Part shown: one piece after another, positions 32,562 through 38,520 of the stretch | Position numbering within the stretch: the stretch's first letter is position 1 | Layout: every line of letters begins with the position of its first letter | NCBI RefSeq assembly: GCF_000008545.1 | Contig: NC_000853.1 | Location: forward strand, 1,626,465 to 1,690,464 | Direction of reading: 5' to 3' | From: Thermotoga maritima MSB8 | GTDB taxonomy: Bacteria > Thermotogota > Thermotogae > Thermotogales > Thermotogaceae | Length of the DNA: 64,000 bases | The notes under the pieces: model-generated | Told to the model about the DNA's origin: nothing | Seen by the model: only the letters and a program-made list of their open reading frames with translations | The model's database searches: none | Translations under genes and position numbers: made by a program

Positions 32562-33359
32562 AAAAACTCGGGGGGATGATTTTTGTATCTGAAACGTTAC
32601 AAATGGATTTTCTTAGTCGTCGCAATGCTCATTTTCTTTGGAGTGGCTTTTGTTCAGATCCACTACCAGAAGAAACTGGAACGCTACCAGCTCGAAGTCT
32701 TCAAAATCATCGTTCAGCGATCTGTGGATCTCGTATCGAGTGGATACTTTCAGTGGACAGAACTGAAAGAAGCGATAGAAAAAAACGATGAAGAATTCAT
32801 CGAAGAAGCCTTTGAGGAAATAAAATCTTTAGATCCATACATTAAGGAAATAAAGATCCTGAATCAACCTCCAGATTTCGAAGAGGAATACTACAGAGTG
32901 GAATCAGATGGGGAAAGACTCTGGGCACTGTTCAAAATATACGACAGCATGGGAGAAGAAATGATAGCTGACAGAACAGCGTATGTAGAATGGAACGTAG
33001 CTGGTATTTTGAACTCAATCGGTGCTTCTGTGGAGTTTCGAAAGGGAGGAAAGAAGACGTTCTGGGGTTTAGAGTACAGAAGCAAGTTCGGCAATAAATG
33101 GTTTGCAGTTTCTTTCTGGAGTTCACTTGGAGGGTTCTCAATCATACTCATCATTCACTCCATTTTTGTGAGGTCTATTTTGAAGTTTCACTATGAAACA
33201 GAAGGACTCGAAAGGATGATCAAAATTATCGACAAGAAAGATCACTACACAGCTCTTCACTCGGAATACACTTCGAGAATCGCTGTTCTCTTAGGAAAGA
33301 AATTGGGACTTAACAAGAAGGAACTGAAAGAGCTTGGAATAGCAGGCCGACTCCATGAC

Positions 33360-34708
33360 AGAACCCCAACCACGCAAGCTATCCCCCTTCAGGGGGATAG
33401 TAAGTGGTTGTTGTAGTTCAACTGTGTTACAATTAGCACAGGGAGTGGGAAAATGCCCGGACGTGTGATACGAACCTACAAACTCGCCGTACCAGGACAC
33501 CTGAGTCAAACATGCGAAGAACTCAACCGCACTGCAGCAAGAATCTACAACAAAACGATGTCTATTGTGCGAAAGATACACCGAAAGAAAGGCTTCTGGC
33601 TGTCCTGGCCCACCGCAGACAAATACATCCTCCGCTGGGCAGAAAACATCAAAATCCACGTCCATTCAAAGCAGGCATTTGTTCAGCTCTACTTTCAAGC
33701 CCTCAAAGGGTACTTCAAAGCAGCCAAAAAGAATCAAGATGCAAAACCTCCCCACAAGAAAAAACGCTATCTGCCGTTCATATGGAAAGAAAGCGCTGTA
33801 AAACTTCTGCCAGACGGTACCCTAAGACTGTCTTTGGGCAAAGAACGAGAATCATTTGTTGTACAAACACCTCTCAAACCTCCCCTTCGCATCAAACAGA
33901 CAAGACTTGTCTTTGAAGATGGATACTATCTCCACCTTGCGATAGAGGTGGAGATTGAAGAGAAGAATGCTGGCTCTGGTGTTATGGCGGCCGACCTTGG
34001 AGTGCTCCGTCCCATCACGTGCTTTGATGGAAAAGAAGTCATCAGCTACCACGGAGGAGTCCTCAGCAGCACTCTTCGCTATCGAAACAAACGCCTTGCA
34101 AGTTTTCAGTCTGCCATAGCAGAGTGCAAGAAGGGATCAAGAAGGTACAACAAGCTTGTTCGTGCAAAGAAAAGAGTCCTGAGACGGCTCAGAAACCAGA
34201 TCAACGACATCATGCACAAGATCACAAGCAGTTTCATCGGACTGTGCCTCAGAAAACAAATCAGAACCATCGTGATAGGAGACGTCACAGGGATCAGAGA
34301 AAGAGCGGACTACAGCGACAACGCGAACCAGAAGATCCACCAGTGGCAGTTCAGAAAACTCATCGAGATGATAAGGTACAAAGCAGAGCAGTTCGGAATC
34401 GAAGTGAAACTCATCTCAGAAGCGAATACAAGCAAGACGTGTCCTGTCTGTGGTGCAAAGAACAATCCGAACGGAAGAAGATACCACTGCAAAGCCTGCG
34501 GTTTTGAGTATCACAGGGACGGAGTTGGAGCAATCAACATCTGGAAAAGGTATCCTGGCACAGGCCAGGTAGTAGCGGGCTTGGCCCCCGTCAGAGGTGT
34601 GAGGTTTCATCCACACCTCTGTGGCCATGGAGCATCTTTGGCTCCATGGAAGGTGGCCTGAGAGCCACCAAGAATCCCATCCCCTTCAGGGGATTGGGAG
34701 GAGGTCAA
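33360..34708 (+). mobile_element. IS200/IS605-group element encoding TnpB only (1349 bp)
   Basis: Boundaries come from restoration of the HD-GYP frame: left flank ...CATGAC, right flank ATAGGAAAG..., with no target duplication. The left end has a perfect hairpin CTATCCCCC-TTCA-GGGGGATAG (33379-33400) inside a longer AACCAC/GTGGTT stem. The right end has CCCATCCCC-TTCA-GGGGATTGGG (34676-34698) and terminates in TCAA, a cleavage tetranucleotide known from this family. No tnpA transposase is present, so movement would need TnpA in trans (IS1341-type). Confidence 0.93.
33453..34661 (+). CDS. tnpB: TnpB RNA-guided nuclease (OrfB family)
   Basis: 402 residues. N-terminal helix-turn-helix/wedge region, then the RuvC-like nuclease: RuvC-I Asp181 (AADLGV), RuvC-II segment TIVIGDVTGIRE (272-283) with Gly276 where most TnpB have Glu, zinc finger Cys330/333/346/349, and RuvC-III Asp356 (HRDGVGAINI). 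Glu323 (ISEANTSKTC) is a possible substitute acidic residue. TnpB uses an omega RNA from the element's right end to cut targets matching the flanking DNA, which favours element retention. The -10-like TACAAT (33428-33433) and GGGAGTGGG lie upstream of the ATG. Confidence 0.92.
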   Translation: MPGRVIRTYKLAVPGHLSQTCEELNRTAARIYNKTMSIVRKIHRKKGFWLSWPTADKYILRWAENIKIHVHSKQAFVQLYFQALKGYFKAAKKNQDAKPPHKKKRYLPFIWKESAVKLLPDGTLRLSLGKERESFVVQTPLKPPLRIKQTRLVFEDGYYLHLAIEVEIEEKNAGSGVMAADLGVLRPITCFDGKEVISYHGGVLSSTLRYRNKRLASFQSAIAECKKGSRRYNKLVRAKKRVLRRLRNQINDIMHKITSSFIGLCLRKQIRTIVIGDVTGIRERADYSDNANQKIHQWQFRKLIEMIRYKAEQFGIEVKLISEANTSKTCPVCGAKNNPNGRRYHCKACGFEYHRDGVGAINIWKRYPGTGQVVAGLAPVRGVRFHPHLCGHGASLAPWKVA

Positions 34709-34728
34709 ATAGGAAAGATCGCTGTACC
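34560..34728 (+). ncRNA. Candidate omega RNA (TnpB guide RNA) with its guide
   Basis: The end of tnpB and the right end form a chain of strong hairpins: AGAGGTGTG/CACACCTCT (34593-34620), CCATGGAGC/GCTCCATGG (34625-34649), GGTGGC/GCCACC (34652-34669, the tnpB stop in its loop) and the terminal CCCC-TTCA-GGGG hairpin (34676-34698). In TnpB systems such a 3' scaffold continues into about 16-20 nt of flanking DNA as guide, here beginning ATAGGAAAGATCGC (34709 onward). The 5' limit is a guess. Confidence 0.5.
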
Positions 34729-35084
34729 AGAACACATCTTGAACAAACCCGGAAAGCTCACAGATGAAGAATTCGAGGAAATCAAAAAACACTCCATCGT
34801 TGGTGCAGACATATTGAGGGAATATCCGGAGCTGTCCTTCGCTGTCCCTGTGGTTCTATACCATCACGAAAGGGTGGATGGTTCTGGATATCCTTTCGGT
34901 TTGAAAGATGGAGAGATACCGCTCCTTGCCAGGATTTTAGCGGTAGCGGATGTGTTCGACGCCCTTACCAGCGACAGACCCTACAGAAAAGCCATGAAGC
35001 CAGAAGACGCTGCAGCTCTCATGAAGAAAATGCCTCTCGATCAGGAGATCGTGGGAATCCTAGAAAAACATCTTTCGGAGTTCG

Positions 35085-35852
35085 TCAGTCTGAAACCTCA
35101 AGTTTCAAACCCGCGTAGCAATCCATGATTTTCCCGAGGAATTCTCTTTTGAAGATATCAACTGCTCTTTCACCCGTGCAGTGACAGGGAACCACGGTTT
35201 CAACTCCAAGCTCGTTGAAGGCCTTCACGATTTTCTCTATCTCATCATCGGAAGATTTCAGAAGATGGAAGCCTCCCACCACCATTTTGATGCGCTCGTT
35301 GAAGGTCTCCGCGATGTCAAGGAGAATGTTGTCGATCCCGCGGTGAGAACAACCGGTTATGACAACCAGACCTTCCTTTGTTCTCACAACCAGAGTCTGT
35401 TCGTCCTCGAAGAGATCTTTTCGCCTCTCACCGTTTCTCTCAACGAAGAAGTCTCCTGTGGGGACCTTTCCTCTCAGATTCGCTGGTCCCAGAAGGAACA
35501 TGTTTTTCCCGATCTCAGTGATTCTTTCGATCACGAACTTTCCTGTGTTCTTCTTGAGTACTTCATTCCAATCGGCTCCTGCGTATCTTTCTCCAGAATA
35601 CTTCTGATCTAGGGCTTCTTTTCTGAGCCACACTCTCTTTCCTGAAAGATACAAAAGACCCCCTGCGTGATCGTAGTGACCATGACTGATGAGCACGTCC
35701 TTTGGAAGATCAATTCCCAGTTTTCGCGCATTTTTGAGAAACACATCGGATTTCCCCGTATCGAAAAGAACGGAATCCACAAGAACAGAAAAACCGTGTT
35801 CGCTTTCAAATCCATTTTGAGATGAATCATCACACAGAACGTGTATTCGCAT
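35085..35852 (-). CDS. Metallo-beta-lactamase-fold hydrolase
   Basis: 255 residues with the metal motif SHGHYDHAGG (about 61-70), a later GCSHRGIDN and a C-terminal PCHCTGERAV. These features resemble the dihydropterin-type subgroup (related to methanopterin-pathway MBL proteins in archaea). The substrate is not evident. ATG 35852 is used, with GGAGGGAG four bases upstream; 35870 is only a longer in-frame start. It ends inside the 3' part of the disrupted HD-GYP gene. Confidence 0.82.
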   Translation of the reverse strand: MRIHVLCDDSSQNGFESEHGFSVLVDSVLFDTGKSDVFLKNARKLGIDLPKDVLISHGHYDHAGGLLYLSGKRVWLRKEALDQKYSGERYAGADWNEVLKKNTGKFVIERITEIGKNMFLLGPANLRGKVPTGDFFVERNGERRKDLFEDEQTLVVRTKEGLVVITGCSHRGIDNILLDIAETFNERIKMVVGGFHLLKSSDDEIEKIVKAFNELGVETVVPCHCTGERAVDIFKREFLGKIMDCYAGLKLEVSD

Positions 35853-36398: not shown

Positions 36399-38096
36399 TT
36401 ATTCGCCGTGAGTTTTTTCCCAGATTTCTTTGATCTTTTCGTGTTTTTCCCTGAAAATCTCGATCAGCTTGGGGTGAAAATTGGACGGTGAGGTTCTTCC
36501 GTCTCCCTCGAGAATCACCCTGACGGCCTCTTCATGGGACAAGGCTTTTTTGTAGGGTCTTTCTGAGCGCAGGGCATCGTAAACATCGACTATCTTGACG
36601 ATCTGCGCTTCTATGGGGATCTCGTCGTCTTTCAGACCGAATGGATAGCCCGTTCCGTCATAGCTTTCGTGGTGGTAGAGGGCTATGTTTCTTGCAACTT
36701 CCAGTTCTTTTCTGCCGGAGAGCAACTCCCCACCCCAGATGGTGTGCTTCTTCATGATTTCCCATTCTTCTGCTGTGAGCTTTCCTTTTTTGTTCAAGAT
36801 CTCCTTGGGAACCTTTATCTTTCCAATGTCGTGGAGTGGAGCGTACAGATATATTTTGTGAACAAGATCTTCATCGAGGCCCATCTCTTCAGCGAAGAAT
36901 TTCGACAGCTCCTGAACTCTTCTGACGTGGTTTCCAGTCGGCTCGTCGAAACCTTCCACGATATCCACCAGTTTGTAGGTGAAAAATTCGTACGCTTCTT
37001 CGACAGCTCGGCTTTTCTCCTCTATCTCCTGAGCCATCTTTTGAAGTTCAGAGTAAGACGCCTCGAGCTCCTCGTAGGATGCTTCGAGCTCTTCCCTCTG
37101 GGATTCAATTATGGTGATCATATCGGAAACTTCATCGATGAGCTGGTTGATCTCCAGAATGTTCGAAGATGTACCCCCAAGATCAAAGATCCTGGAACGC
37201 AGGTACTCCTTTGAAGCCTTCGAGAACACCTCGAGGGGAACTCTGAGTTCTCTGTCGATCAACTTAGATACTCTTCGAACGATCGGGAAAGAAATTATGA
37301 AGGCTAACCCGATCACATAACCCAAGTGGAGAAGAGAATTCCTCAGAAAAACAAGAAGCGGTACCTGGATCACAAAGACCGTGGATCCCGTTTTTCTGAA
37401 AAATGCAACACCGGACACGCTTATCTTCGCGCCGTAATCTCTTGATTCAAAGTCTTCGGGATCGAGTTTCACATGGATTTCACCGTTTTGAAGAAGAACC
37501 GTTCCGTCTTCTGAAAGAACGTACATGCCCGGTTGTAGAAGATCCTTCATCACCTTTGATGGAACAATATCGATTCCCAAAACACCGAGGAGGTTTCCTC
37601 GTTCGTCGAGTATCGCTCTCACTATACCAAAAGTGACAACACCGAGGATTCTGTGGGTGAAGGGAGGAGTAACCACAGCAGAGTCGGGGTTTTCAGCAGC
37701 AGCTTTGTACCAGGGTCTCTCCCTTGGGTCGAAATCGGGAGGAAACGTGTAAAGAGGATATATGTAGTAATTGCCATCCGGGGTGGCAAAGATGGGATAA
37801 GCTGAATAATCTCCGAAGTGTTCGCGGATCAGTTTCAAAACCTCGAGAATCGTTCCGGGATTTTCAAAATCCTTACTGCGATCTGCGAAGAAATCGAGGA
37901 CATCCCGGTAGTGATCGATTGTCCTTTCCCACTCGTTCGAAACAAGGGTGAGCTTTTCGAACCAGTCTTTCTTGCCAATATAGTAGGTTACTATAAAAAC
38001 AAAAACAGCTATCACGAGCGATAGAAGAAAAATGAAGATCAGATTTTTCTTGTAAACCAGATCTTTGATAACATCACTCAATTTTCTCGGTGCCAC
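36399..38096 (-). CDS. Cache-domain HD-GYP cyclic di-GMP phosphodiesterase
   Basis: 565 residues: membrane helix (about 18-40), extracytoplasmic dCache sensor (about 42-250) with the ERPWYKAA segment seen in small-ligand sensors, second membrane helix (about 256-277), HAMP/coiled coil (about 290-375), and an HD-GYP domain with PLHDIGKIKVP, HHESYDGTGYP and VDVYDALRSERPYKKA. All catalytic signatures are intact, so this is an active-looking c-di-GMP hydrolase. GTG 38096 follows GAGGGGTGATG. Confidence 0.9.
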   Translation of the reverse strand: MAPRKLSDVIKDLVYKKNLIFIFLLSLVIAVFVFIVTYYIGKKDWFEKLTLVSNEWERTIDHYRDVLDFFADRSKDFENPGTILEVLKLIREHFGDYSAYPIFATPDGNYYIYPLYTFPPDFDPRERPWYKAAAENPDSAVVTPPFTHRILGVVTFGIVRAILDERGNLLGVLGIDIVPSKVMKDLLQPGMYVLSEDGTVLLQNGEIHVKLDPEDFESRDYGAKISVSGVAFFRKTGSTVFVIQVPLLVFLRNSLLHLGYVIGLAFIISFPIVRRVSKLIDRELRVPLEVFSKASKEYLRSRIFDLGGTSSNILEINQLIDEVSDMITIIESQREELEASYEELEASYSELQKMAQEIEEKSRAVEEAYEFFTYKLVDIVEGFDEPTGNHVRRVQELSKFFAEEMGLDEDLVHKIYLYAPLHDIGKIKVPKEILNKKGKLTAEEWEIMKKHTIWGGELLSGRKELEVARNIALYHHESYDGTGYPFGLKDDEIPIEAQIVKIVDVYDALRSERPYKKALSHEEAVRVILEGDGRTSPSNFHPKLIEIFREKHEKIKEIWEKTHGE

Positions 38097-38227
38097 ATCA
38101 TCACCCCTCGGTGTTCTTATTTTACTACATTTTTACAAGGCGATCGTGATGTATGACTATTTGGCTTAGAAGTGCTAAAACTTTAGTAGGTCGCACAGAA
38201 ATAAAGTATCTCCGAGCCCGAAGAGGG

Positions 38228-38247
38228 GAAGATTGGGAGGAGGTCAA
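38228..38247 (+). other. Remnant of an IS605-type right end
   Basis: GATTGGGAGGAGGTCAA at 38231-38247 is identical over 17 bases to the terminal 17 bases of the TnpB element at 34692-34708, including the TCAA end. A preceding AGGGGAA resembles the element's AGGGGA with a small change. No tnpB is recognisable nearby. It is probably the scar of a second, decayed copy, ending seven bases before the csp -35. Confidence 0.65.
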
Positions 38248-38253
38248 TACATC

Positions 38254-38283
38254 TTGACACATCCACCTACGAAGTGTTATGAT
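38254..38283 (+). promoter_or_regulatory. csp promoter
   Basis: Perfect -35 TTGACA (38254-38259), 18-bp spacer and -10 TATGAT (38278-38283). A roughly 30-base leader with AAGGAGG follows. It lies immediately downstream of the IS right-end remnant. Confidence 0.8.
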
Positions 38284-38319: not shown

Positions 38320-38520
38320 ATGAGAGGAAAGGTTAAGTGGTTCGATTCCAAGAAGGGCTACGGATTCATCACAAAGGACGAAGGAGGAGACGTGTTCGTA
38401 CACTGGTCAGCCATCGAAATGGAAGGTTTCAAAACTCTGAAGGAAGGCCAGGTCGTCGAGTTCGAGATTCAGGAAGGCAAGAAAGGTCCACAGGCAGCGC
38501 ACGTGAAAGTAGTTGAGTAA
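38320..38520 (+). CDS. csp: Cold-shock protein
   Basis: 66-residue single OB fold with RNP1 KGYGFIT and RNP2 VFVHW, a nucleic-acid chaperone. Length and sequence agree with the hyperthermophile Csp of T. maritima as I remember it. Strong promoter and terminator make it a single-gene transcript. Confidence 0.96.

Follow-up and report, generated by a model that had tools for sequence, protein, structure and literature searches.

A probable decayed, ends-only IS200/IS605 relic upstream of the cold-shock gene csp in Thermotoga maritima MSB8

The DNA immediately upstream of the cold-shock gene csp is best explained as a decayed, ends-only IS200/IS605 relic, inserted 3′ of TTAC between an HD-domain gene and csp. 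We give this reading a probability of about 0.72. The window, meaning the whole 64-kb stretch of DNA analyzed here, comprises bases 1,626,465–1,690,464 of the 1,860,725-base genome (designated G000), and all positions below are window positions unless given in kb or as genome-wide matches. The features of the locus are as follows, with a slash marking a junction and with G001 and G005 standing for two relatives in which the same site was found.

33360–34708, + strand: tnpB-only IS200/IS605 element, TGAC/AGAACCCC...TCAA, inside an HD-domain gene
33453–34661, + strand: tnpB of this element, 402 aa, with OrfB_IS605 and Cas12f1-like_TNB domains
34584–34708, + strand: intact omegaRNA/right-end region of this element (RNA model 152.3 bits; fold z −5.5)
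36399–38096, − strand: divergent gene for a dCache plus HD domain protein, 565 aa, on the opposite side of the insert
38120–38125, + strand: TTTTAC, likely insertion target (TTAC) of the relic, from the G001 empty site and TTAC-subfamily left flanks
38126–38247, + strand: 122-nt insert relative to G001, presumed decayed ends-only IS200/IS605 relic (absent in G001, a 45-nt insert in G005)
38231–38247, + strand: presumed right-end relic GATTGGGAGGAGGTCAA, ending in the TCAA cleavage tetranucleotide
38254–38259, + strand: csp −35 hexamer TTGACA, 6 bases 3′ of TCAA
38278–38283, + strand: csp −10 hexamer TATGAT
38320–38520, + strand: cold-shock protein gene csp, CSD domain, 66 aa

The 17 bases of GATTGGGAGGAGGTCAA occur as two exact copies in the window. 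The copy at 34692–34708 is the right end of the tnpB element, and the copy at 38231–38247, the csp scar, lies between the divergent dCache/HD gene and csp. This bears out the first-pass annotation, which had noticed 17 bases identical to the element terminus, including TCAA, upstream of csp. No third match was found in the window at three or fewer mismatches. Genome-wide, there are four exact copies (the window element, 803089 on the minus strand, 1804615 on the minus strand, and the csp scar), and each of them except the scar is the right end of a tnpB element. The search for further right ends added one match with a single mismatch and one with two mismatches, which are the right ends of a tnpB element and a tnpB remnant. 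Matches with exactly three mismatches number five, compared with three for a reversed-pattern control. Apart from the csp scar, no exact copy unlinked to IS elements was found in this genome, and the 17-mer is thus not a string that is common independent of such elements. The expected number of chance exact copies per genome is 0.0001–0.0009 under Markov models of order 1–5 (0.00012–0.00088). A right-end profile HMM built from 15 elements matches the scar with 12.6 bits (E 0.007 in the 64-kb window), over profile positions 18–34 only, and none of 1,500 dinucleotide shuffles of the insert reached this score. The earlier judgment that the match is unlikely to be accidental is well supported by both figures.

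We located the HD-gene/csp junction in three genomes: G000, G001, and G005. The site is empty in G001, TTTTAC/TACACCTTGACA. Between the same boundaries, G005 carries an insert of 45 nt, TTTTAC/...TTCAA/TACATCTTGACA, and the insert of G000 is 122 nt long, TTTTAC/...GGTCAA/TACATCTTGACA. The presumed insertion junction reads TTTTAC/TACAYCTTGACA. The arrangement TTTTAC/insert/TACAY in G000 and G005 versus TTTTAC/TACAC in G001 is that of an insertion without target duplication, 3′ of a tetranucleotide. The TCAA boundary, which had been read as an IS605-type end, coincides exactly with the edge of a stretch whose presence and sequence vary among close relatives. An empty site together with TCAA-ended inserts matches the no-duplication anatomy of the family, as given in an excerpt of PMC7290912, and counts for the relic. 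G001 may represent the pre-insertion site, a precise excision, or a deletion between the TACAY repeats. The inserts of G000 and G005 align no better than shuffles (413 of 2,000 as high), so a shared single insertion is not established by sequence; they may reflect one insertion with two paths of decay or two insertions at one preferred site. The five remaining aligned genomes (G002, G003, G004, G006, and G010) have unrelated DNA upstream of csp. Therefore, the 17-mer is not a conserved csp upstream element, being kept in none of the seven aligned relatives.

The csp −35 (TTGACA) and −10 (TATGAT), with a spacer of 18, are invariant in all eight aligned genomes, including the insert-free G001. 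Therefore, the promoter is not derived from the insertion, and the idea that an insertion had supplied or rearranged the control of csp does not hold, given this invariance and the five relatives with unrelated upstream DNA. The scar had also been placed directly before the −35. It is indeed near, but it does not abut the hexamer, as TACATC (38248–38253) separates TCAA from TTGACA.

The right-end tail is the sole demonstrated element part of the window insert; the left 80 nt had no significant match in any of the comparisons made. When 45 genomes of the order were searched with the insert, its own locus alone came out as significant (best other match, E 0.016), and the left ~80 nt (38126–38205) had no significant match in the 44 other genomes. 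Comparison of the 78-nt left part with 19 element loci likewise gave nothing significant (35 of 60 shuffles as high). No left-end hairpin matching the TTAC-subfamily left-end HMM, described below, was found in the 122-nt insert, versus 19.3 bits for the G005 insert. Local alignment of 38136–38247 to the TTAC-subfamily left end was equaled by 125 of 3,000 shuffles, or by 58 of 3,000 when the tail was left out. Visual inspection shows that GATCGTGATGTATG resembles the conserved GATYGTGATGAATG block of that left end, and we do not claim it as a left end. The insert contains neither tnpA nor tnpB, as expected for an ends-only relic. As a side observation, the ~80 nt at 38126–38205 were found only in the window's genome among the 45 genomes of the order.

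Next to be considered is the kind of element that left the relic. The subfamily of the window element and its nearest sister insert after TGAC; a tally based on six typed left-end motifs gives this tetranucleotide in 9 of 10 distinct left flanks and GGAC in the tenth. TTAC is the target of another Thermotogales subfamily, where it precedes 15 of the 16 distinct left ends, with TTAT before the remaining one; this second tally has 17 rows, two of which are the same locus, and its query included the flanking TTAC, which favours the tally. The TTAC-subfamily left end carries CAGAAAGCACATCCCATTTATGGGATTGTGATGAATGGC. The 19.3 bits of the G005 insert against the left-end HMM of this subfamily were reached by none of 1,500 shuffles (the largest being 8.0), and its weak 8.1 bits against the right-end HMM were likewise reached by none of 1,500 (the largest being 6.4). 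The G005 insert thus joins a left-end hairpin to a TCAA tail at a TTAC site, which argues for an ends-only relic of a TTAC-subfamily element rather than a copy of the window element. The csp scar had been taken for the trace of another copy of the element in the window. We set this candidate aside, as the insert follows TTAC, not TGAC, and its G005 counterpart has a TTAC-subfamily left end.

The tail itself agrees exactly with that of the TGAC subfamily (17/17), and TTAC-subfamily right ends in G002 end in GGGAGGACGTCAA, one base different from the scar (16/17). Of seven genomes of the genus, G002 alone has close homologues of the TTAC-subfamily TnpB (91–100% identity); the window's genome reaches 51% at best. 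The 16/17 tail of G002, the unmatched left 80 nt, and the failure of the G000 and G005 inserts to align all count against the relic as we read it, and so does the chance that G001 arose by deletion between the TACAY repeats. It is conceivable, though unlikely, that the relic instead comes from a TGAC-targeting element of the window's tnpB subfamily, inserted after the TGAC at 38154–38157, of which all but the last 90 nt were lost or overwritten. Such an origin would fit the identical 17-mer and the presence of TGAC within the insert. However, no left end follows this TGAC, the bases 38126–38157 are also missing from G001, and the G005 insert has a TTAC-subfamily left end at the same boundaries.

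Template switching or conversion could also have brought the tail in from the tnpB element nearby, with no insertion at csp. We consider this improbable. In its favour, a donor lies 3.5 kb away in the same orientation, and the 17 bases are exact while the hairpin part upstream of them is unrelated. However, the match stops exactly at TCAA, which is the indel boundary in G005 and G001, and this is explained by insertion but not by conversion. An accidental match of a purine-rich, Shine-Dalgarno-like string to the element tail is more doubtful still: GGAGGAGGT resembles a strong ribosome-binding site and five 3-mismatch matches exist elsewhere, but the Markov expectation given above and the coincidence of the boundary in two relatives stand against it.

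We also analyzed whether the scar retains a guide RNA. The first-pass annotation had suggested that a left-over guide scaffold could still be transcribed toward the promoter; the csp promoter lies in the DNA 3′ of TCAA, the position from which a guide is taken. Intact TnpB copies are present in the window's genome. In an excerpt of PMC8612924, TnpB guides are described as ~150-nt right-end RNAs plus ~16 nt of flank. The covariance model of the 125-nt right-end/omegaRNA region was built from 15 sequences and has 30 pairs, with 96.4% of cells paired and 18 cells with changes on both sides. The intact window element scores 152.3 bits with this model, versus 1.7 bits at the scar (E 0.31 in 301 bases, filters off), where no omegaRNA scaffold was found; the scar was not listed in a genus-wide scan at E ≤1. 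The fold z value is −5.5 for the window element versus −0.5 for the insert, and folding showed that the window insert does not form the right-end subterminal hairpin. No promoter-like site was found upstream on the + strand (38060–38253), and Rfam gave no family at gathering score near the scar, only sub-threshold matches. In short, no structured scaffold comparable to a ~150-nt guide RNA and ending at the right end is left at the scar, and the suggestion of a left-over scaffold has to be abandoned. Judged by these RNA models, the scar is not a guide locus; a reduced, unrecognised RNA may be there. Against this evidence, and with the tail kept in none of the seven aligned relatives, it is highly improbable that a left-over scaffold directs TnpB to the csp promoter or that the right end controls csp. 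We hold it equally improbable that the degraded right end, 6 bases before the −35, is a lineage-specific csp control element, either as a contact site for a protein or for RNA polymerase, or as a minimal RNA that one of the intact TnpB copies recognises in trans.

Returning to the ends-only relic of a TTAC-targeting element, we propose the following history. An IS200/IS605-family element would have inserted 3′ of TTAC in the short divergent region between the HD gene and csp. We infer that an internal deletion then removed the bulk of the element, tnpB and the omegaRNA scaffold among it, and that lineages kept different pieces, namely the left-end hairpin plus TCAA in G005 and the 17-nt right-end tail plus ~80 nt in G000. 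DNA upstream of a pre-existing csp promoter would thereby have been replaced, and any effect on csp would be at most that. The effect of the relic on csp is probably neutral. The promoter is present in relatives without the relic, so the relic most likely amounts to common genomic debris and not to a novel means of control. With no tnpA or tnpB and with its right hairpin lost, it is no functional element.

The closest described kind is the PATE-like (palindrome-associated) ends-only sequence of PMC7290912, an IS200/IS605 derivative of 271 nt in Halanaerobium hydrogeniformans, with one copy reported in the excerpt of that paper. Like it, the Thermotoga inserts are short, have no tnpA, and would consist of end pieces only. 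However, they are much shorter, at 122 and 45 nt, and the window's copy, with its end hairpin destroyed, has probably lost its mobility. The relic shares the 17-base right-end tail and the TCAA end with the window's IS200/IS605 tnpB element (33360–34708), but that element has a TGAC target and an intact omegaRNA region, whereas the relic lies at TTAC and has no omegaRNA region. TldR-type proteins are RNA-guided repressors derived from TnpB, according to an excerpt of PMC13418256. The likeness to them is in general idea only, an IS605-derived guide aimed at a promoter, as the scar has neither a protein gene nor a scaffold. Listings of open papers gave none on IS605/TnpB relics in Thermotoga, and an excerpt of the main text of PMC3636130 mentions neither cold shock, TM1683, nor transposons. 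The locus offers an example of IS605-type decay in a hyperthermophile, where, among three relatives, one orthologous site is empty in one, holds a short relic in another, and a longer one in the third. It is also a caution against reading every promoter-near IS605 end as a guide-RNA regulator. Should the relic influence csp after all, the locus would be a natural instance of evolution upstream of a promoter through transposon debris.

Other IS605 sequences gave further observations. The HD-domain gene that holds the window's tnpB element is split at TGAC into parts at 32583–33359 and 34709–35128, reading ...GRLHD to the left of the element and IGKIAVPEH... to the right. The two halves lie apart in G005 (loci L068, L080, L125, and L127), where the right half comes after an IS copy located at 1008.9 kb (+) and the left half lies before another, at 1142.6 kb (−). 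The partner flanks of these G005 copies are those of the 1804.6 kb (−) copy in the window's genome. There is an apparent chromosomal inversion of ~135–143 kb between inverted IS605 copies when G000 and G005 are compared. Lastly, hairpins closely resembling IS605 right ends, of the type CATCCCC-TTYA-GGGGATTGGGAGGA, occur in G000 at 141.8, 815.9, and 1021.7 kb (loci L074, L075, and L076). Two of these places are upstream of other tnpB-like genes, the third is elsewhere, and the continuation of the hairpins differs (GCAGACATGTGTACC).
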